NCBI GenBank assembly: GCA_016928415.1
Contig: JAFGKU010000131.1
Span: 1-64,000 of the forward strand
Direction: 5' to 3'
Source of the DNA: Spirochaetales bacterium
Lineage (GTDB): Bacteria; Spirochaetota; Spirochaetia; SZUA-6; JAFGRV01
Length of the DNA stretch: 64,000 nt
The notes under the pieces are model-generated. The model was not told the origin of the DNA and made no database searches. It worked only from the letters and a program-made list of their open reading frames with translations. Below are positions 2,381 to 16,758 of the stretch, piece after piece. The position numbers and the translations under genes were made by a program. How positions within the stretch are numbered: the stretch's first letter is position 1; each line of letters begins with the position of its first letter.

Positions 2381-3349
2381 ATGGAAAAAACAAGGCTTTT
2401 AATCGTTGATGACGAAGAAGATGATCTCAACATCATGTCCCACATTCTCAAAAAGGATGTGGACGAATGCTATGTTGCCAAATCGGGCCAGGAAGCCTTT
2501 TCCATAATCGCCGAAAAGAAAATAAACATCGTTTTGGTGGATATTCTCATGCCCAATATGACAGGTTTCGAGGTCTGCAAGGAAATCAGGCGGTCATACA
2601 TCGAATGGCCGCTGCAGATCGTCGTTATATCGGGGCTCACGAACGATCATTTTCTTGAACAGGCCATCGAAGTGGGAGGTGACGATTTCATCACAAAACC
2701 CATCGTGGCCCTGGAATTAAAAAGACGTATAAAGGTGGCTACCATCAGGTTGAAATCGCAGTTAAAAATGCATAATGAAGCCATAACCCTGAAAGAAACG
2801 GTGGCGCAAAAAGATAAATTATACGAAGAGCTTTCAAGCACCAATGAAGAACTCAAGGTAATGGCCAATTTCGATACACTTACCGGATTGATGAACCGGG
2901 CATCGTTATTTTCGACCATAGACAATGAGCTGGCCCGGTCTCAGCGGACTGGCGCCCCCTTAACGGGGATCATGCTTGATTTGGACCATTTCAAGCGGGT
3001 GAATGATAATTACGGCCATCAAACGGGGGACTGTATTTTAACGAAACTGGGTACCCGCCTTAAAAAATACTTGAGGCGCTACGATTACGCGGGCAGGTAC
3101 GGCGGCGAAGAATTCTATATTGTCCTGACCAATGCCTCCCTGCAGCAGGGTTTCGTTATCGGAGAACGTTTCAGGGAACACCTGGATAAAAACGATTTCC
3201 TGTGTGAGGATAAAAAAATAAAGGTAACCGTATCGATGGGTATTGCCCAATACAGGGAAAACGAATCAAGGGATGACTGGATTGCCAGGGCCGACAAAGC
3301 GCTTTATCATGCCAAGGAAAACGGAAGAAACAGGATCTGCCTGGAATAA
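2381..3349 (+). CDS. Response regulator with GGDEF diguanylate cyclase output
   Basis: Cytoplasmic REC-GGDEF protein expected to make cyclic di-GMP when phosphorylated. Residues 1-120 are a receiver domain with acidic pocket DDEED, phospho-acceptor Asp54 (LVDILMP) and the switch Lys in ITKPI. A coiled-coil linker follows at about 130-160. The cyclase domain has the catalytic motif GGEEF at 241-245 and a complete product-inhibition I-site, RRYD at 232-235, exactly five residues before it. The enzyme should therefore be active and feedback-inhibited. No histidine kinase is adjacent; candidates lie elsewhere in the window. A promoter is visible about 100 bases upstream. Confidence 0.93.
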   Translation: MEKTRLLIVDDEEDDLNIMSHILKKDVDECYVAKSGQEAFSIIAEKKINIVLVDILMPNMTGFEVCKEIRRSYIEWPLQIVVISGLTNDHFLEQAIEVGGDDFITKPIVALELKRRIKVATIRLKSQLKMHNEAITLKETVAQKDKLYEELSSTNEELKVMANFDTLTGLMNRASLFSTIDNELARSQRTGAPLTGIMLDLDHFKRVNDNYGHQTGDCILTKLGTRLKKYLRRYDYAGRYGGEEFYIVLTNASLQQGFVIGERFREHLDKNDFLCEDKKIKVTVSMGIAQYRENESRDDWIARADKALYHAKENGRNRICLE

Positions 3350-3362
3350 TTGATCAGGATTT

Positions 3363-5120
3363 TTAACCCCTTTTTAAAACCTTTTCGAATTCTTTACTGA
3401 AAATCCTGAATGCATCATCCTCCAGAAGAGTAAGGTACCCTTTTCTCTCAAGGCCATCCGCATGGTAATCATCACAGGTAACTTTTTCCCCGTTCATTAC
3501 CTTTAACATTACTTCTTTTTCTTCCGGAAGCAGATTTTCCAGGATGTATTCATAATGCGGTTCCACTTCTTCCCGGAAAATATCCAGGACGCCTTTCGGC
3601 GCCGACCGGGAGGCAAATTCGCCGGCATCCTGTCCCTCGCTCTCCAGGTATTCATACCAGGCGGAGCAGGCTATCTGGATAAAGAACGGGTAAAATCCCG
3701 CCATGGAAACAATGGATTGGGATACGGGTTTCAATGGAATCGATGCACGTTCCGAAGGCTCTGATATCAGGGCCAAAGCCTCCTTTTCCCTGAACGCGCC
3801 CAGATACTGCACGGTGAATATATTGAAAAACGGGGAATCGGAAATGGCATGCGAGGCGCACATCTCCTTCAAATTTTTACCGGAGGCCGTTATGAACGCA
3901 ATGGGAAGCGTATTGGCGAGGGAACGGAAAATGGAATAAAATTCAGGCCCTATTTTTTCGTTCTTCGTGACCGCTTCAAATTCATCGAAAAGCATGATCA
4001 GCCTGTAGCCGTTAGATGCTATCGCCTCGCATAGACGCCCCAACCCGTCGTAATTTTCCGGCAGATTAATTTCTATCCTGTTTTCCGTTTGTCTTGTGAG
4101 TTCCGAATAAATGACCCCTATAAGTTCCTCCGGACTTTTCAGCCTGAACTGCTGAAAATCAATGAAGAGGAATATATATTGCTCCGGCTTTTCCATGTGT
4201 TTGAGGCGCGTTACCGGGCTGTTGATAAAATTGAGCATTGAGGATTTCCCGATCCGTCTCTCGCCTACAATGGATATCGACTGCGGCCGTTCCGAAGAAA
4301 TACGGCTGAAAATCCGTTTAACAATCGATTCACGGCCGTAAAACAATTCAGGATGCGGGATCATGACCCGGTTAAGGTAAGGATTGCCCCTGTAAGAAAC
4401 GGGCTTCAGGGCCGCAGCGCCGGTTTTCAGGTCTATGTTGCCCTTGATGACGACGCCTTCTTTCTTGGATTCGGTCCTTCCGGAGAAACTTACTTTTTTG
4501 GACTTCCACTTTTCAATAATCGAATTCTGGTCCGTATTGTTCCAATTGATAAAATAAAAATTTATCTTTTCTTCTTTACCCTTCACCGCTTCGCTTCCGA
4601 GAAAAACAAAGGAAACATTGGGGTCCTGGACTTTTTCCTTCAGGGCGGAAGATATGAGAATTTCCTCGCCATCCGCCTTGGATTCCACCCGGGCAGCCGT
4701 ATTCACCATGTCACCGAACAGGTCCTTGCCTTCCACAACGGCACGTCCGTAATGAAGCCCCATCCTCACCCGTATTCTCTGCTTATCGGACTTCCCGCTG
4801 TTATATTCTTTAAGGGCATGCTGCATCTCCACGGCGCATCGAACGCTGTTAGTCGGGTCCTCGAAGCTGGCCATGATGGAATCCCCGATGGTTTTTATTA
4901 TCTTCCCGTCATACTTTTCAATAACCTTGAACAGCAAATCATTATGCACCTGGATCATCTGGCGGCCCGCGATGTCGCCGAATTTCTCGAAATACTGTGT
5001 TGACCCGACAATATCGGTAAAAAGGAGAGTCACGGATTTGGTGTGGCCGTCCATGATCTGCCTGTCGATCTCTTCCAGGACTTCCTTTCGCTTCCTCAAT
5101 AAATCTTCGATATTACCCAT
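3363..5120 (-). CDS. Class III nucleotide cyclase fused to an AAA-type ATPase
   Basis: The N-terminal 190 residues form a class III adenylate/guanylate cyclase homology domain with the catalytic set intact: metal-binding Asp36 (FTDIVGS) and Asp80 (GDSIMASF), transition-state Asn140 and Arg144 (NTAAR). After a linker comes a P-loop ATPase of the STAND/ATPase_2 kind with Walker A GERRIGKSS (286-294) and Walker B-like IMLFDEFEA. The C-terminus resembles the winged-helix end of such ATPases. It probably makes cAMP (or cGMP) under control of the ATPase module. It is the last gene of a four-gene operon with two further ATPases of the same kind. A Crp-like protein encoded near 16.5 kb is a plausible receiver. 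No membrane segment is seen. Confidence 0.88.
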   Translation of the reverse strand: MGNIEDLLRKRKEVLEEIDRQIMDGHTKSVTLLFTDIVGSTQYFEKFGDIAGRQMIQVHNDLLFKVIEKYDGKIIKTIGDSIMASFEDPTNSVRCAVEMQHALKEYNSGKSDKQRIRVRMGLHYGRAVVEGKDLFGDMVNTAARVESKADGEEILISSALKEKVQDPNVSFVFLGSEAVKGKEEKINFYFINWNNTDQNSIIEKWKSKKVSFSGRTESKKEGVVIKGNIDLKTGAAALKPVSYRGNPYLNRVMIPHPELFYGRESIVKRIFSRISSERPQSISIVGERRIGKSSMLNFINSPVTRLKHMEKPEQYIFLFIDFQQFRLKSPEELIGVIYSELTRQTENRIEINLPENYDGLGRLCEAIASNGYRLIMLFDEFEAVTKNEKIGPEFYSIFRSLANTLPIAFITASGKNLKEMCASHAISDSPFFNIFTVQYLGAFREKEALALISEPSERASIPLKPVSQSIVSMAGFYPFFIQIACSAWYEYLESEGQDAGEFASRSAPKGVLDIFREEVEPHYEYILENLLPEEKEVMLKVMNGEKVTCDDYHADGLERKGYLTLLEDDAFRIFSKEFEKVLKRG

Positions 5121-5162
5121 ATCTTCACCTATCTATTAATTGAATATGCCTTAACGCACTTT

Positions 5163-6161
5163 TCATTCACTGAAAACACCCTTGAGCATTTTATTCGAAA
5201 GTTTACTCTTTAAAAAGAGCGTAAATGCAGGGGAAAACGACTGGAGCGTATCCTCGTATTCCTCCAAAAAACCGTACCGGACCAAAGGCCGCAGTAAATG
5301 AAGCTCTTTTTCGGCAGGGGCTTTACCTGCACCAAGGTTCTTCAATGGTTTATACGATTCGTTATCCAGGATGGAAATAATCTGCTCAAAATAAGGTGAA
5401 ATCAGAGGGAGGAAAAGCGATTCATAATTCTTTTCAATGATTTTTCCCTTATCGATTTTCCGTTCCAGAATTTCATTTCCCACCAGTTTCAAGAGGTACG
5501 GGGAAGGACCCAGCCATTCCACTAGAGATTTACCCACCTCGGGATTAAACGCGGGTTCCAGGATCTTTTCAGCCGCGCTTTTAGAGATCAAACCCAATGA
5601 AAGGTTTGTGAAAATATTAAAAAACGGAGATTCCTCAATGTCTTTGACCACGCAGAGTTTCTGTAATTCCAAAAATGACGTCGTTACATAAGCCACATTA
5701 TAATTGTTCGCCAGCGAACGGAGGAAAGAAAAAAATTCAAGTGGAAAGGACTCGCTGCTTGTTATGAGGTGAAAATCATCCAAAAGCAGTACCAGTATCT
5801 TGCCGCCGGAATGAAGGGCTTCCACTTTTTTCTGCAGCCCGGTATAGGGATTTTCTTCACCGTTTTTCTCATTGAAGAGACACTTGATAACCTTGTCAAT
5901 AAAATCCTTTATCGAGGTAAAGGCCTCTTCCCGTATATTGATTTGACAGAAATAATATTTATCCAATTCATCAAGATACTGTGACCTCACCGTTTCATTC
6001 ATCACGTAATTGACGAGTGATGTTTTGCCGCTTTTTATGCTGCCGATGACAGCCACCGATTGCGGTCTTTCGGCGCCGATACGGGAAAATATCCGTTTAA
6101 TAATACCCCGCTGGCCGAAAAAATCAGCCGGGGCCGTCACAGGTGTGTCTGCAAAATCCAT
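5163..6161 (-). CDS. AAA/STAND-type ATPase, stand-alone
   Basis: P-loop ATPase of 332 residues related to the C-terminal part of the neighbouring cyclase fusion: both begin with a block of the form FFGQRGIIKRIFSRI followed by ERPQS. Walker A is GSIKSGKTS at 40-48, and Walker B is VLLLDDFHL. The start at MDFADTP is preceded by AAGGAG five bases upstream; a longer reading would run back into the upstream gene. There is no signal peptide or membrane segment. Of the three ATPases in the operon this is the smallest, lacking any fused output domain, so it may be an adaptor or partner of the other two. Function unknown beyond nucleotide binding. Confidence 0.75.
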   Translation of the reverse strand: MDFADTPVTAPADFFGQRGIIKRIFSRIGAERPQSVAVIGSIKSGKTSLVNYVMNETVRSQYLDELDKYYFCQINIREEAFTSIKDFIDKVIKCLFNEKNGEENPYTGLQKKVEALHSGGKILVLLLDDFHLITSSESFPLEFFSFLRSLANNYNVAYVTTSFLELQKLCVVKDIEESPFFNIFTNLSLGLISKSAAEKILEPAFNPEVGKSLVEWLGPSPYLLKLVGNEILERKIDKGKIIEKNYESLFLPLISPYFEQIISILDNESYKPLKNLGAGKAPAEKELHLLRPLVRYGFLEEYEDTLQSFSPAFTLFLKSKLSNKMLKGVFSE

Positions 6162-6199
6162 AAAGTCTCCTTGATTGAAGGCATCAACGTTATCGTATA

Positions 6200-7093
6200 T
6201 TAAAATGTGTAAAACAGGCCGAAATTTATATTCGCGTAACCTATCCTGAGAAAACCCGGCAGAATAGGCCACTCACCATACGCGGGCAATTCAAAAGTAC
6301 TCCCGCCGCTGTAATACAAATCTATACGGATAATCTCCGCCCGGACAAAAATTCCCAGTCCAAGACGGGTATTTATTTCCGCCTGCCCGGCTATTGACAT
6401 GGTATGAATATACTTTAAATCATTAACCATGATTCCGTTTAATTCAAAACGGTAAAAACCGGCCAAAGCAAAAATTATCTGTTCCAGGTTCCAGGTGGGA
6501 TACCAGACCGCACCTATTTGTCCGCTCAACTTATCGAGAATGGCGGGTTCCTCAATAAAGGGAGACCTGAAGGGGAACCCTATCTCTGCGGTAATTGACC
6601 AGGAATCCGAAAGATTTATTGAATAATAAAGACCAAGATTAATAAAAACAGTCGAGTATAACCCGATATTGTTTCTCCTGGTTTCCCGCGTAAAGCGTTT
6701 AATATAGGCATCCCTCGTTGAAGTGAATAAATCGTATAAAAATGGGGGTATCTGTGATGGCTTCCCCGGCGTAAGATTAATATCCAGCTCAATAGCCTTT
6801 TGAAATAACCCCTGGATTTCGTCCCTGTAAGGCTTTCCCTCTTCCCGAAACGCATAGACCAAAAAACCCTTTATCCTGTAAAGCCTGGCCAGGAAGTAAT
6901 TGGGGAAGCGATCATCCCCCGTTGCCTGGAGATACACCTCTACTAATTTCCGGCAATCCTCATATTGACCTGAGGCATAAAGGCTCTCCACTTCCTCAAA
7001 TTTTTTCCTGGCCGCCTCCGTGGGTGATTCTTCCTGTGCATAAAGAACCGGCAGGCAAACCAAAAAAAATAAAATCCCGTATAATGCTTTCAT
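6200..7093 (-). CDS. Secreted protein, TPR-like N-terminus and beta-strand-rich C-terminus
   Basis: I do not recognise a named family. A cleavable signal peptide is clear (MKALYGILFFLVCLPVLYAQ). Residues about 25-120 are helical and resemble TPR repeats (FEEVESLYASGQYEDC, then FLVYAFREEGKPYRDEI). The remainder alternates aromatic and polar residues in beta-strand style and ends in GLFYTF, a terminal Phe typical of outer-membrane barrels. It could be a small outer-membrane or periplasmic sensor. Its ATG overlaps the stop of the upstream PEGA-ATPase gene by four bases (ATGA), so the two are translationally coupled and probably work together. Confidence 0.6.
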   Translation of the reverse strand: MKALYGILFFLVCLPVLYAQEESPTEAARKKFEEVESLYASGQYEDCRKLVEVYLQATGDDRFPNYFLARLYRIKGFLVYAFREEGKPYRDEIQGLFQKAIELDINLTPGKPSQIPPFLYDLFTSTRDAYIKRFTRETRRNNIGLYSTVFINLGLYYSINLSDSWSITAEIGFPFRSPFIEEPAILDKLSGQIGAVWYPTWNLEQIIFALAGFYRFELNGIMVNDLKYIHTMSIAGQAEINTRLGLGIFVRAEIIRIDLYYSGGSTFELPAYGEWPILPGFLRIGYANINFGLFYTF

Positions 7094-9120
7094 TCAATTA
7101 TCTCCACTATTTTTACCGTGTCTTCCTCTAAAACCTCCACCCATATCTTTTTATTGAAATTGAGACTTTCATTGACTATTTGAATTTCATGATTTCCGGT
7201 GGGAACTTTTACCGGCTTGACATAAGGAGTATCGGCGAGATGGACGCCGTCCATGTAAATGGATGCTCTCGGTCTTACATCAAGCTGAAGATAACCGAAT
7301 GTCTCGATTAAATCCACTGTTTTGGGCGTAACCTTGTCCCCTTCCACCGTTACGGTCATCTTTTCATGCCTGTATCCCGGCAAAATCAATTCCAGCGAAT
7401 GCTTACCCGCTTTCAAGCCCTCTAGATTGAGAGGCGATACACCGGCAGGGTCGCCATCCAGCAGGATTTGCGCGCCCTGGGGCTTTGTAACGATGAAAAG
7501 CGACCCCTTATTTGTTTTTGAGGCGATTTGTGTCTTTTGGGAGGAATCGCTGTTACTGCTTTCAGCAACTACTTTCCTGGTAAATTCTACTCCTAAACCC
7601 TTGTTTTCCATCGAAACAACTGCCTGGAGACTTATCTTTTCGCCTGTTTCAGGATTCAGGAATTCAAACGCGTGTTCGCCGGTTTTCAGGGAAGGAATGA
7701 GTATCGTTTTCTCATCCTTCAAACCTTCATTGGTAAGACTCAAGCTGCCGTCGACCACCACGCGGAACGGACCCGTATTGGCCGTTATGGCATAATCCTT
7801 GACTTCATCCGCTGTTGGTTTTACAGAACCGCCGTTAAAATTAAAAATGCCGGGAAATCCATTTTTACCCACGGGAAGAAACAGCAAGGCACCGGCTGCC
7901 AGCAGGATGACGACGATTGAAGCGGCAGTAATAATCAAGGCCTTTTTGGAAGCAGGCTTTAATTTAATATCAACTTCTTTTAAAACCTTCCAGATGGAAT
8001 GTTCTTTTTTGATCCAGCGCCTGTAAAGGTCCATGCGGAACTGGTAATTCAATTCGGCATTCTTGACAAGGAATTCATTGTGGTACGCTTCTTCGACAAA
8101 AATGTTGATTTTTTCCCTGTTCAAAGGCAGTCTTATCTTTTCCTTCTTTAAAAACTGCCTGATTCTGGATGCGCTGGTCCATTCATCGGGTTTTTTAAGC
8201 AGGCTTCCCAGGCAGGAGAGTACAAGTTTCACTTCATCGGACAAGCTGTCCCAGAAATATATCATCTGCGGCAAAGGGTTGGCAACAATGTCACCGGCAA
8301 CATGGTCCAGGTCTTTATTCTTCACATCATTTCTTTCTTCTTCTACAAGTATGTCGACAATATTCTGACAAACCACCTGGGTATAAAAAGGCTGTCCTCC
8401 TGTTAACCTGAAAATTCTGGAAATTACTTCATCCGGATATTCTATAAAATCTTTTAAAGGCTCCTTGATCAGCCGCGCCGTATCGTTAAATGACAAGGTG
8501 GAAATCTTCTTGTAAATGGATTTCCCAAGCAATGATTTCCAGTAATCTACCTTCCTGTTCTCAAGATTCGTGGACCCGGTGAAGATAAAAGACACTTTAT
8601 AGGGACTTTCAAGTATACCGGCCAGATAATGAATCGTCGACAGGCTCAAGGAACCATCCCTTATTTTCGCTTCAATCAATTCATATTCATCCAGCAGAAA
8701 TAAAAGTATTTTCTCCGGGAAACGGGTTTCTATTAATTTCAAAAAGGACTCGAAAAGGGATTCCACGGTGTTTTTATCAGATTCCATCAGCATTTCGACT
8801 GTGATATCTTCCGAATTTAATCCCTGGCAGGCAACCTTTAATATCGATTTAAAAAAATCATAATCGCTCTTAATGCCGGCTAATATTTGCATATCGATAA
8901 GAATGGGAAGAAAATTCGGTCCCAGCCTGCCGGTAAGAATTTGAAAAAGAATGGAAGTTTTACCGGAACGCCTTTCCCCGCAGAGTATAATAATCTGATT
9001 CGATTTACCCTCACTGATTTTCCTGGTAACAAAAAGGAAATCATCTTCCCTGCCAAAGAACATATCACTTGATTTAATGGGATTCCCTACAATATAAGGG
9101 TTAAAAGGTATTTTTTTCAT
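7090..9120 (-). CDS. Membrane-anchored AAA/STAND ATPase with C-terminal PEGA domains
   Basis: Residues 1-390 are a cytoplasmic P-loop ATPase with Walker A CGERRSGKTS (47-56), Walker B-like LLFLLDEYEL and a sensor-like block (FIFTGSTN). A single transmembrane helix follows at about 393-415. The extracytoplasmic part holds at least two PEGA-type beta domains (about 540-610 and 610-676). The PEGA signature is visible in PQGAQILLDGDPAG and in PRASIYMDGVHLAD. The layout suggests signal transfer across the membrane, outside PEGA domains to an inside NTP switch, or the reverse. It is the first gene of the operon ending with the cyclase-ATPase fusion. No strong ribosome site is visible before the ATG. 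Confidence 0.8.
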   Translation of the reverse strand: MKKIPFNPYIVGNPIKSSDMFFGREDDFLFVTRKISEGKSNQIIILCGERRSGKTSILFQILTGRLGPNFLPILIDMQILAGIKSDYDFFKSILKVACQGLNSEDITVEMLMESDKNTVESLFESFLKLIETRFPEKILLFLLDEYELIEAKIRDGSLSLSTIHYLAGILESPYKVSFIFTGSTNLENRKVDYWKSLLGKSIYKKISTLSFNDTARLIKEPLKDFIEYPDEVISRIFRLTGGQPFYTQVVCQNIVDILVEEERNDVKNKDLDHVAGDIVANPLPQMIYFWDSLSDEVKLVLSCLGSLLKKPDEWTSASRIRQFLKKEKIRLPLNREKINIFVEEAYHNEFLVKNAELNYQFRMDLYRRWIKKEHSIWKVLKEVDIKLKPASKKALIITAASIVVILLAAGALLFLPVGKNGFPGIFNFNGGSVKPTADEVKDYAITANTGPFRVVVDGSLSLTNEGLKDEKTILIPSLKTGEHAFEFLNPETGEKISLQAVVSMENKGLGVEFTRKVVAESSNSDSSQKTQIASKTNKGSLFIVTKPQGAQILLDGDPAGVSPLNLEGLKAGKHSLELILPGYRHEKMTVTVEGDKVTPKTVDLIETFGYLQLDVRPRASIYMDGVHLADTPYVKPVKVPTGNHEIQIVNESLNFNKKIWVEVLEEDTVKIVEIIE

Positions 9121-9181: not shown

Positions 9182-9232
9182 GGGGGTTTTTACGGTTGCC
9201 AAGGATAAATTGATAGTTGATTAGAGGTCCCC
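9182..9232. repeat. Remnant of the dispersed element at a gene end
   Basis: The stretch GGGGGTTTTTACGGTTGCC, then a TAAATTGATAGTT core, then TTAGAGGTCCCC, follows the right half of the intact copies at 30.6 and 61.1 kb. A degenerate left end (GCACATTAAAAAATC) directly precedes it from about 9168. The terminal TTAGAGGTCCCC encodes, on the minus strand, the last three residues and the stop codon of the lipoprotein gene that ends at 9221. Confidence 0.6.
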
Positions 9233-10114
9233 GATTAATATTTGAATACCACGCGACAGGTCCTCTGATGAAAGTGATAATCCATCAATATATAAGTAAT
9301 TATCCATTATTTTAATATTAATTTCCTTTATGATTTGCGAAATATTCCCCACTTTGATCTCCTTAAACCACCATAAAAGGAAAGTCTTGAATGATGTTTG
9401 AAAGAGTCTGGCGTTCTTTTCCCCCTGACAATTGAAAAAGCAATCCAGGCAGAGCCGGCCGGCTTTTTTATATAAATATACACCCGTTTCTTTTATGGGA
9501 ATTCTCTTTCTGTTCAACGGAATACGTTCGGGGAGTCCTTCCCTGGAAAAAAACGGAAAATAGAAGGCAGCCATGCTTTTTTTGAAATCGGCGCTCAATC
9601 TTTCCGGCAGGGAGAAACGGCGCTCATCATGACTTTTTTTGATATTCATCGGAAAAGACCTGTCTTCGTTCGTTATAAACAAAGAATAGGATTCAGGCAA
9701 TGACAGGGAAATGCCGCTGTTCCTGTTTTCCCAGAAAGCGCCGCCACCGGCCGTCTTTTTTATCCATTCAGGCCTGGAAGTCAATTCATTTACAATATAA
9801 TCCGCAGGATATTGCCCCAATAACAGCAGGAACATACCGGAGCCGCCACCAGAGACAAACTTTGAAGTACCATAAATTGAATAAGTTCTGTCAATTAACG
9901 GTTTGATCTGACGATAGTCCTGGTGGAATGTCTGTGATAAAATATCAAGCAGGAAAGCGGTTTTAGATTCATTTTTCACATAAAAATAAACGGACTGCCC
10001 GGCCGGTAGAAAGGACATCCATTCAGTATGTTCCCTATGCGGCGGCAGATTAGCACACCCGGAGAAAATTAATAGCAATATAATTAAAAGAAGATAAAAC
10101 CGCTTCATTCCCAT
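9221..10114 (-). CDS. Putative lipoprotein of unknown function
   Basis: I do not recognise the family. The N-terminus is a lipoprotein signal peptide with lipobox LIFSGC, so the mature protein should be lipid-anchored through that cysteine. The rest is a soluble domain of about 270 residues with FFSREGLPERIPLNRKR-like charged segments and no repeats. The start could also be two codons downstream (MKRFYLL). Its last codons (Gly-Asp-Leu, stop) come from a remnant of the dispersed repeat, so the original C-terminus may have been longer or different. It is probably a single-gene unit, divergent from glgP. Confidence 0.6.
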   Translation of the reverse strand: MGMKRFYLLLIILLLIFSGCANLPPHREHTEWMSFLPAGQSVYFYVKNESKTAFLLDILSQTFHQDYRQIKPLIDRTYSIYGTSKFVSGGGSGMFLLLLGQYPADYIVNELTSRPEWIKKTAGGGAFWENRNSGISLSLPESYSLFITNEDRSFPMNIKKSHDERRFSLPERLSADFKKSMAAFYFPFFSREGLPERIPLNRKRIPIKETGVYLYKKAGRLCLDCFFNCQGEKNARLFQTSFKTFLLWWFKEIKVGNISQIIKEINIKIMDNYLYIDGLSLSSEDLSRGIQILIGDL

Positions 10115-16145: not shown

Positions 16146-16758
16146 GTTCCGCCAGTTCCGTAAGTTTACCGGCATCGAGTAGAAGCAGCGTATTTCCTTT
16201 GATATTGATTATTCCATCTTTCTGCAGGGAATCAAAAAGTGATTCAACGAGTTCAAGGGGAAGTTCCAGATTCTCCGACATATCGGCCAGGATTTTATCA
16301 TAGGGAAGTTCGGTTTTATCACTGTTTATGCCCTTGAACATGTGTATAAGATTCATGGCAACCAGGGCTGATTTATTTTTCCTGACCAACAGGCGCACCT
16401 GCTGATTGGCGCTCCACAACCGCCGGCATAATTTATCTATTATGTTCAGGGCAATCTTCGAATTCTTTTTAATCATGCTTTCGAATCCGTCCCTGTCGAA
16501 ACCGAGCACTTCCACCTTTGTCACGGCTATGGCTGACGCCGTCCGTTTATCTTTCATCACAATGGCCATTTCACCAAAGAAATTACCCTTTTCCAGAATT
16601 GATAAAACATATTCCTTTTCGCCGAATTTCCTGACTATTTTTACTTTCCCGCTCTGGATGATATACATCATGTCACCCTTCTCGCCTTCAATGAATATAG
16701 AATCCCCCGGATTGAAAATTGAACCGAAATTCTTGAACAATGAAGAATCATCCGACAT
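16129..16758 (-). CDS. Crp/Fnr-like cyclic-nucleotide-binding protein
   Basis: The N-terminal half is a cyclic-nucleotide-binding domain: glycine turns in NPGDSIFIEGEKGDMMY, and a phosphate-binding cassette FGEMAIVMKDKRTASAIA with the Glu and Arg that hold the cyclic phosphate. The C-terminal 70 residues look like a winged-helix domain (DKILADMSENLELPLELVE) but are weakly conserved as DNA-binding. The start (MSDDSS) has AAGGAG six bases upstream; an in-frame extension to 16860 has no ribosome site. It is a candidate receiver for the class III cyclase encoded near 4 kb. No FeS-type cysteine cluster of Fnr is present, so cAMP or cGMP is the likely ligand. Confidence 0.85.
   Translation of the reverse strand: MSDDSSLFKNFGSIFNPGDSIFIEGEKGDMMYIIQSGKVKIVRKFGEKEYVLSILEKGNFFGEMAIVMKDKRTASAIAVTKVEVLGFDRDGFESMIKKNSKIALNIIDKLCRRLWSANQQVRLLVRKNKSALVAMNLIHMFKGINSDKTELPYDKILADMSENLELPLELVESLFDSLQKDGIINIKGNTLLLLDAGKLTELAEHAVCT

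Follow-up and report, generated by a model that had tools for sequence, protein, structure and literature searches.

This study concerns a four-gene operon (genes A, B, C and D) on the minus strand of a 64,000-nucleotide stretch from the genome of an uncultured Spirochaetales bacterium (contig JAFGKU010000131.1, positions 1 to 64,000; hereafter the window), which we read, with somewhat more confidence than doubt, as a modular system that relays signals from the envelope to the cytoplasm by means of two types of STAND ATPase, with cyclic AMP (cAMP) as its output in this case. Seven other genomes from this order of spirochaetes hold the full A-B-C-D set with its gene order kept, an arrangement far beyond chance. 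A previous sequence-only reading of this DNA had described four genes at these positions, forming an operon in which a secreted protein is coupled by an ATGA junction. All of this was confirmed: the genes run in the order A, B, C and D from window position 9120 to 3363, the end of A overlaps the start of B in the 4 bases ATGA, the B-C and C-D gaps measure 38 and 42 bases, and the set behaves as one conserved unit. For gene C, the ATG at 6161, with GGAG ahead of it, is the most probable start codon, in preference to the GTG at 6272. The genes and the main parts of their products are the following:

7090..9120, minus strand: gene A (P0001, 676 amino acids), predicted cytoplasmic AAA+/STAND-type ATPase with one membrane helix and extracytoplasmic PEGA-type domains
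8953..8979, minus strand: Walker A motif of A, GERRSGKTS (sequence and homologue alignment)
7882..7947, minus strand: membrane helix of A, residues 392-413 (homologue hydropathy and AlphaFold2 helix)
7099..7806, minus strand: three beta-sandwich (PEGA-type) domains of A, residues 439-511, 538-603 and 608-674 (Pfam PEGA and AlphaFold2 strands)
6200..7093, minus strand: gene B (P0002, 297 amino acids), signal peptide, TPR-like helical domain and predicted outer-membrane beta-barrel
5163..6161, minus strand: gene C (P0003, 332 amino acids), stand-alone nSTAND2 ATPase
3363..5120, minus strand: gene D (P0004, 585 amino acids), class III nucleotide cyclase fused to nSTAND2
4548..5042, minus strand: cyclase domain of D, residues 27-191 (D36, K76, D80, D133, N140, R144)
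3366..4385, minus strand: nSTAND2 domain of D, residues 246-585 (Walker A GERRIGKSS, Walker B FDEF, GxxP motif)

A membrane ATPase, a predicted barrel and two nSTAND2 proteins

Gene A is matched by the Pfam families ATPase_2 (2e-09) and PEGA (4.7e-18, in two stretches) and has no match to nSTAND2. Its product opens with FFGREDD and bears the Walker B LLDEY and the GxP-type motif GGQPF, while the Walker A form GxRRSGKTS is present in 8/8 listed homologues from spirochaetes and Calditrichota, residues R50, R51, G53, K54, T55 and S56 being invariant among 16 sequences. The lysine-rich N-terminal side of its one membrane helix (~392-413) suggests that the ATPase lies inside and the PEGA part outside, in agreement with the membrane-crossing ATPase with external PEGA domains that had been proposed. 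The AlphaFold2 model of A (mean pLDDT 81) comprises an AAA+ core, a C-terminal region, the membrane helix and three beta-sandwich domains, and its top PDB matches in Foldseek were Cdc6/Orc proteins (E 7.7e-12), covering both the core and the C-terminal region, and a plant NLR came 43rd in the list. Sequence searches for solved structures related to A, B or C returned none of value.

Both C and D are recognised by nSTAND2 (Pfam PF20702, curated cut-off 24 bits), with 86.2 bits for C (E 3.1e-24) and 121.8 bits for D (E 4.2e-35). Protein C shows an FFGQRG start, Walker A GSIKSGKTS, Walker B LLDDF and the GxP-type motif GPSPY, the equivalent elements of D being FYGRES, GERRIGKSS, LFDEF and GFYPF; the Walker A and B motifs of D are intact in all homologues checked. 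In the cyclase domain of D (Guanylate_cyc, E 6.9e-24), the six class III catalytic residues, which cover two metal-binding Asp, a Lys/Asp substrate pair and the transition-state Asn and Arg, are all present and kept in the alignment of 8/8 D proteins, so that the intact class III cyclase of the sequence-only reading stands. The Lys/Asp pair presumably points to ATP as the substrate, and the product of D would be cAMP. The closest solved relative of this domain is Ma1120, and weak matches to Pycsar cyclase models were also obtained (2e-10). A cAMP circuit is plausible in the source genome G000 (5.1 Mb), since it holds 17 class III cyclase matches (one under the family cut-off) and 27 cNMP-binding domains, a signalling repertoire strikingly rich in cAMP components, with no effector tied to the operon. 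One cNMP-binding domain (E 7.4e-23) occurs in the window itself, at 16462-16716 on the minus strand, within a 252-amino-acid open frame ~7 kb from the operon, and might be a cAMP effector.

Protein B has a signal-like N-terminus followed by TPR-like helices (residues 24-132) and by a predicted barrel (141-296) of about 8-10 strands (AlphaFold2 mean pLDDT 79), as expected for the secreted beta-rich protein previously noticed. Foldseek retrieved mostly small outer-membrane barrels (OmpA/OmpX/OmpW/AlkL-type), the best at E ~2e-3 and none below E 0.001, and no Pfam family matched B. The protein ends in YTF, and a TF ending is found in 6/7 homologues; outer-membrane barrels often end in this way, with a C-terminal aromatic residue. 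From its model, B is likely an outer-membrane barrel.

A common ATPase block in A, C and D had also been put forward, with GERRxGKTS as the shared Walker A type. The kinship is upheld, the exact motif is not: GERRxGKTS is found in A alone, D having GKSS and C GSIKSGKTS. By profile comparison the three blocks are clearly homologous (hhalign of the A block versus C/D, 99% probability, E 2.8e-18 over 324 columns, the region beyond the ATPase core included), and the hallmarks of STAND proteins, namely a Walker A, an acidic Walker B and a GxP-type motif in the winged-helix region past the core, are found in all of them. C and D share 31% identity over 332 alignment columns, A being more distant (BLASTP A-D 4e-06) and apparently belonging to a STAND branch different from the nSTAND2 of C and D. 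In the tree, the C proteins of spirochaetes, Calditrichota and one Gemmatimonadota genome form a clade apart from all D proteins (support 0.998), and C and D appear to be old paralogues. Moreover, the sequences compared have DDF at the Walker B of C proteins versus DEF in D proteins, a standing difference which suggests a division of labour, for example with one member binding ATP but hydrolysing it poorly.

Conservation of the operon and of the ATPase pair

Within the order, nSTAND2 was found in 8/26 genomes, each with exactly two copies (C and D), the other 18 having none; in the source genome the domain is likewise confined to C and D. No nSTAND2 was detected in the 295 other genomes sampled from the phylum. 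The sequence-only reading had proposed a search for the gene set in other spirochaetes and would have been refuted by a lack of co-occurrence; the genes do co-occur and this first refutation fails, but the set is confined to one order and not general, being absent from the rest of the 296-genome phylum sample. Across that phylum, full-length D gave only generic cyclase matches and full-length B a single weak match restricted to the TPR region; the nSTAND2 domain and the ATPase of A were used as queries in their place. Identities to the seven relatives are 50-54% for A, 26-35% for B, 47-53% for C and 53-60% for D. The genes flanking the operon are dissimilar among the relatives, with mixed metabolic, transport and other functions in the neighbours sampled, and the next upstream gene has no homologue; since the flanks vary, the conserved spirochaete unit is the four genes.

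Beyond spirochaetes, scanning one genome for each species yielded 25 loci. Many loci are on short metagenome contigs and, as the sampled genomes are related to one another, counts do not stand for independent events. The pairing of an A-type ATPase with an nSTAND2 protein is also found in Calditrichota, Gemmatimonadota, Glassbacteria, Acidobacteria, Krumholzibacteriota and Latescibacterota, with A identities of ~38-47% across phyla. The outputs carried by these loci are the following, those of L044, L049 and L054 having been assigned from sequence without a Pfam run of their own:

L040, L055 (Calditrichota): kinase-cyclase fused to nSTAND2
L041, L042, L044: zinc-ribbon kinase fused to nSTAND2
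L045, L046, L049, L053, L054, L140: kinase fused to nSTAND2
L043: kinase at the C-terminus of the nSTAND2 protein
L048, L050: sigma-54 activator fused to nSTAND2

The kinases examined retain HRD, and most of them DFG, which is DLG in L053. The input side also varies, with PEGA domains, TPRs or eight membrane helices, and the Calditrichota locus L040 keeps the gene order of the source operon (A, a barrel-type protein, C and D). Because the cyclase is one of several interchangeable outputs, what is conserved at the core is the pair of ATPases rather than the four-gene set.

As the initial loci had been picked by nSTAND2, A was searched separately. Of the 20 genomes that gave those loci, nearly all of those with a strong A-type match have it within ~5 kb of nSTAND2; in G333 the two are on short separate contigs. 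The A profile alone, run on the 346 genomes of the phylum to which G323 belongs, found A-type genes in five, two of them already known; in the three new ones a zinc-ribbon kinase-nSTAND2 gene adjoins A, although in G346 the contig ends inside that gene, part of the way through the kinase. The nSTAND2 search of the same genomes also gave five, four shared with the A search plus G340, where A is a fragment at the contig start. Altogether, 6/346 genomes hold the pair side by side and 340 hold neither. In this line, the distance matrices of A and D correlate with r 0.88 over 18 loci and 0.72 within spirochaetes.

Several of these loci have unusual components. In the sigma-54 domains of L048:2345-4438 and L050:1462-3681, GAFTDA replaces GAFTGA in the sigma-54-contacting loop. 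The Acidobacteria A (L043:7838-10051) has eight predicted membrane helices ahead of the ATPase, replacing the PEGA domains behind it. A Caldithrix metagenome-assembled genome encodes in one open frame a complete RND efflux pump (ACR_tran, 5-1013) and an nSTAND2 domain (1130-1391; L137:980-5332). Huge proteins with many FG-GAP repeats are encoded directly after the kinase-nSTAND2 gene at L046:5241-9313 and L049:9059-14047, the latter also having weak matches to secretion-sorting tails, and a protein of similar size occupies the same position at L054:9176-14221. Finally, in a Ktedonobacteraceae metagenome-assembled genome (L058:2662-7614) the A-like ATPase forms the C-terminus of a 1651-amino-acid protein with a beta-propeller and HEAT repeats, encoded divergently to an nSTAND2 gene ~0.3 kb apart.

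In the window, the genes around the operon serve ordinary metabolism and transport, and the matches to defence models among them are few and generic. A response regulator-GGDEF fusion (2381-3349, plus strand) is convergent with gene D and ends 13 bases away, which places a second nucleotide-messenger gene beside the cyclase, and a predicted lipoprotein (9221-10114, minus strand), without Pfam match and without homologue in related loci, lies just upstream of A. No RNA family was matched at the locus, the repeat search gave nothing beyond short chance-like matches, and promoter and terminator scans gave signals not above chance level.

Proposed relay and competing explanations

In the mechanism that we propose, A would be the input, its periplasmic PEGA domains sensing, together with the outer-membrane barrel B, the state of the envelope or the cell wall. 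Such a signal would alter the nucleotide state of the cytoplasmic ATPase of A, which would then assemble jointly with C and D, the two nSTAND2 ATPases. The D subunits would thereby be gathered, so that their cyclase domains pair and produce cAMP. Class III cyclases work only as dimers, and assembly would therefore be a natural switch for them. In other phyla, the same A-type/nSTAND2 pair would drive a protein kinase, a kinase-cyclase or a sigma-54 activator. Sensing, the A-C-D complex, activation by assembly and cAMP as the product are steps that we infer from the sequences, whereas the gene set and its order, the domains, the intact catalytic motifs, the linkage between A-type and nSTAND2 genes and the exchange of outputs are directly observed. 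The path from envelope to second messenger suggested by the sequence-only reading is consistent with predicted parts that span the outer membrane, the inner membrane and the cytoplasm and with the intact cyclase residues, but it is too narrow in one respect, as the cyclase is merely one of several outputs. More broadly, the loci may represent a widespread, unrecognised class of signal transduction in which a membrane STAND protein passes an envelope signal to a cytoplasmic nSTAND2 protein by co-assembly, with outputs swapped by evolution, a generalisation that we advance tentatively, at somewhat short of even confidence.

Some observations weigh against this relay. The mode of assembly is not readable from sequence, and the correlation of distances and the joint inheritance of A and D reflect shared history and are no proof of contact, because an operon travelling together gives the same result. 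Genomes G328 and G332 hold nSTAND2 without any A-type gene, so that nSTAND2 can work alone; G335 likewise shows no A-type gene, but its locus is on a short contig. On the side of the envelope, homology of B to the barrel-type protein of the Calditrichota locus L040 and to the secreted protein of a Gemmatimonadota locus was unsupported by hhalign. These genomes without A, numbering two or three, could also indicate that the three ATPases are independent paralogues sharing an operon, with the cyclase either constitutive or controlled by its own nSTAND2 domain alone, a fusion that by itself would suffice for regulation. We regard this as improbable, since the linkage of A-type and nSTAND2 genes is kept in many phyla despite differing gene orders and outputs, unlike a chance operon.

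A role in defence, in which attack by phage or on the envelope would be sensed by the nSTAND2 pair and answered by D with an alarm nucleotide, is suggested by the operon of two genes, mobile and predicted to counter invaders, in which nSTAND2 was first described (PMC8195603), by the weak Pycsar-model match of the D cyclase and by the patchy distribution inside the order. We find it unlikely: C has no match in phages and A on plasmids gave one match of 22% identity, not a real A-type; the neighbourhood is unlike a defence island; the outputs elsewhere are kinases and sigma-54 activators, with no toxins or nucleases; the published effector-bearing STAND has eroded nucleoside triphosphate motifs, those of D being intact; and the predicted barrel and the PEGA domains point to the envelope. 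An envelope function of another kind, with A and B building or tethering a surface structure with ATP while C and D merely report on it, would agree with the description of PEGA domains as peptidoglycan-associating (PMC7159879), with the TPR-like domain and predicted barrel of B, with the FG-GAP giants that follow the kinase versions at L046 and L049 and with the RND pump-nSTAND2 fusion of Caldithrix. Such a machine seems quite unlikely to us, the spirochaete operon having no secretin or transporter and the nSTAND2 partner found beside A elsewhere bearing a regulatory enzyme.

Relation to known systems

The most familiar STAND ATPases either act as one-protein switches in immunity and cell death or activate transcription as single chains. 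Cyclase and STAND-type ATPase are joined in one chain, as in D, in the mycobacterial cyclase-ATPase-HTH (helix-turn-helix) proteins and in soluble adenylyl cyclase; these act as single proteins with no known membrane ATPase as partner, and their ATPase family probably differs. A literature search found no paper joining the terms 'PEGA domain', 'STAND' and 'cyclase', subscription papers being mostly outside its coverage.

The nSTAND2 family owes its name to a mobile operon of two genes, predicted to be a counter-invader system, in which both genes encode STAND NTPases and the effector-bearing one is eroded and fused mostly to a GT4 glycosyltransferase or a HEPN RNase (Kaur et al. 2021, eLife, PMC8195603, Fig. 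6C). The present operon resembles it in the STAND NTPase core, the PF20702 domain, the variable effector on one protein and the asymmetry between NTPases. It differs in that the motifs of D are intact, in its effectors, which are a cyclase, a kinase or a sigma-54 activator, and in the partner A, a non-nSTAND2 membrane protein of another STAND branch with PEGA domains; furthermore, in contrast to that mobile operon, C was not matched in phages and the only plasmid match of A was the one of 22%. On its predicted features, the operon is related to the published two-gene nSTAND2 system without being a member as defined, and is a new, membrane-linked signalling variant whose nearest published relative is that system.

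A second relative is provided by the ternary systems of iSTAND proteins with PEGA/OmpA domains, where PEGA is considered peptidoglycan-associating (Kaur et al. 2020, eLife, PMC7159879). In them, too, a STAND-like protein lies close to the membrane in the company of PEGA or other domains that bind peptidoglycan, but they combine MoxR and vWA genes with an inactive STAND, and the present operon has neither a MoxR nor a vWA gene.

The ATPase pair looks like a modular, largely unstudied carrier of signals from the envelope into the cell. A with D offers a clear, testable pairing, and the output variants a natural set for finding the rules of STAND-to-STAND signalling. If the proposed relay is true, it would constitute a second modular route, besides two-component systems, for bringing envelope signals inside bacteria. 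As a functional analogy only, both have a membrane input, a cytoplasmic output protein and interchangeable outputs; unlike two-component systems, the operon has no histidine kinase or receiver, and its proposed relay is the co-assembly of ATPases.

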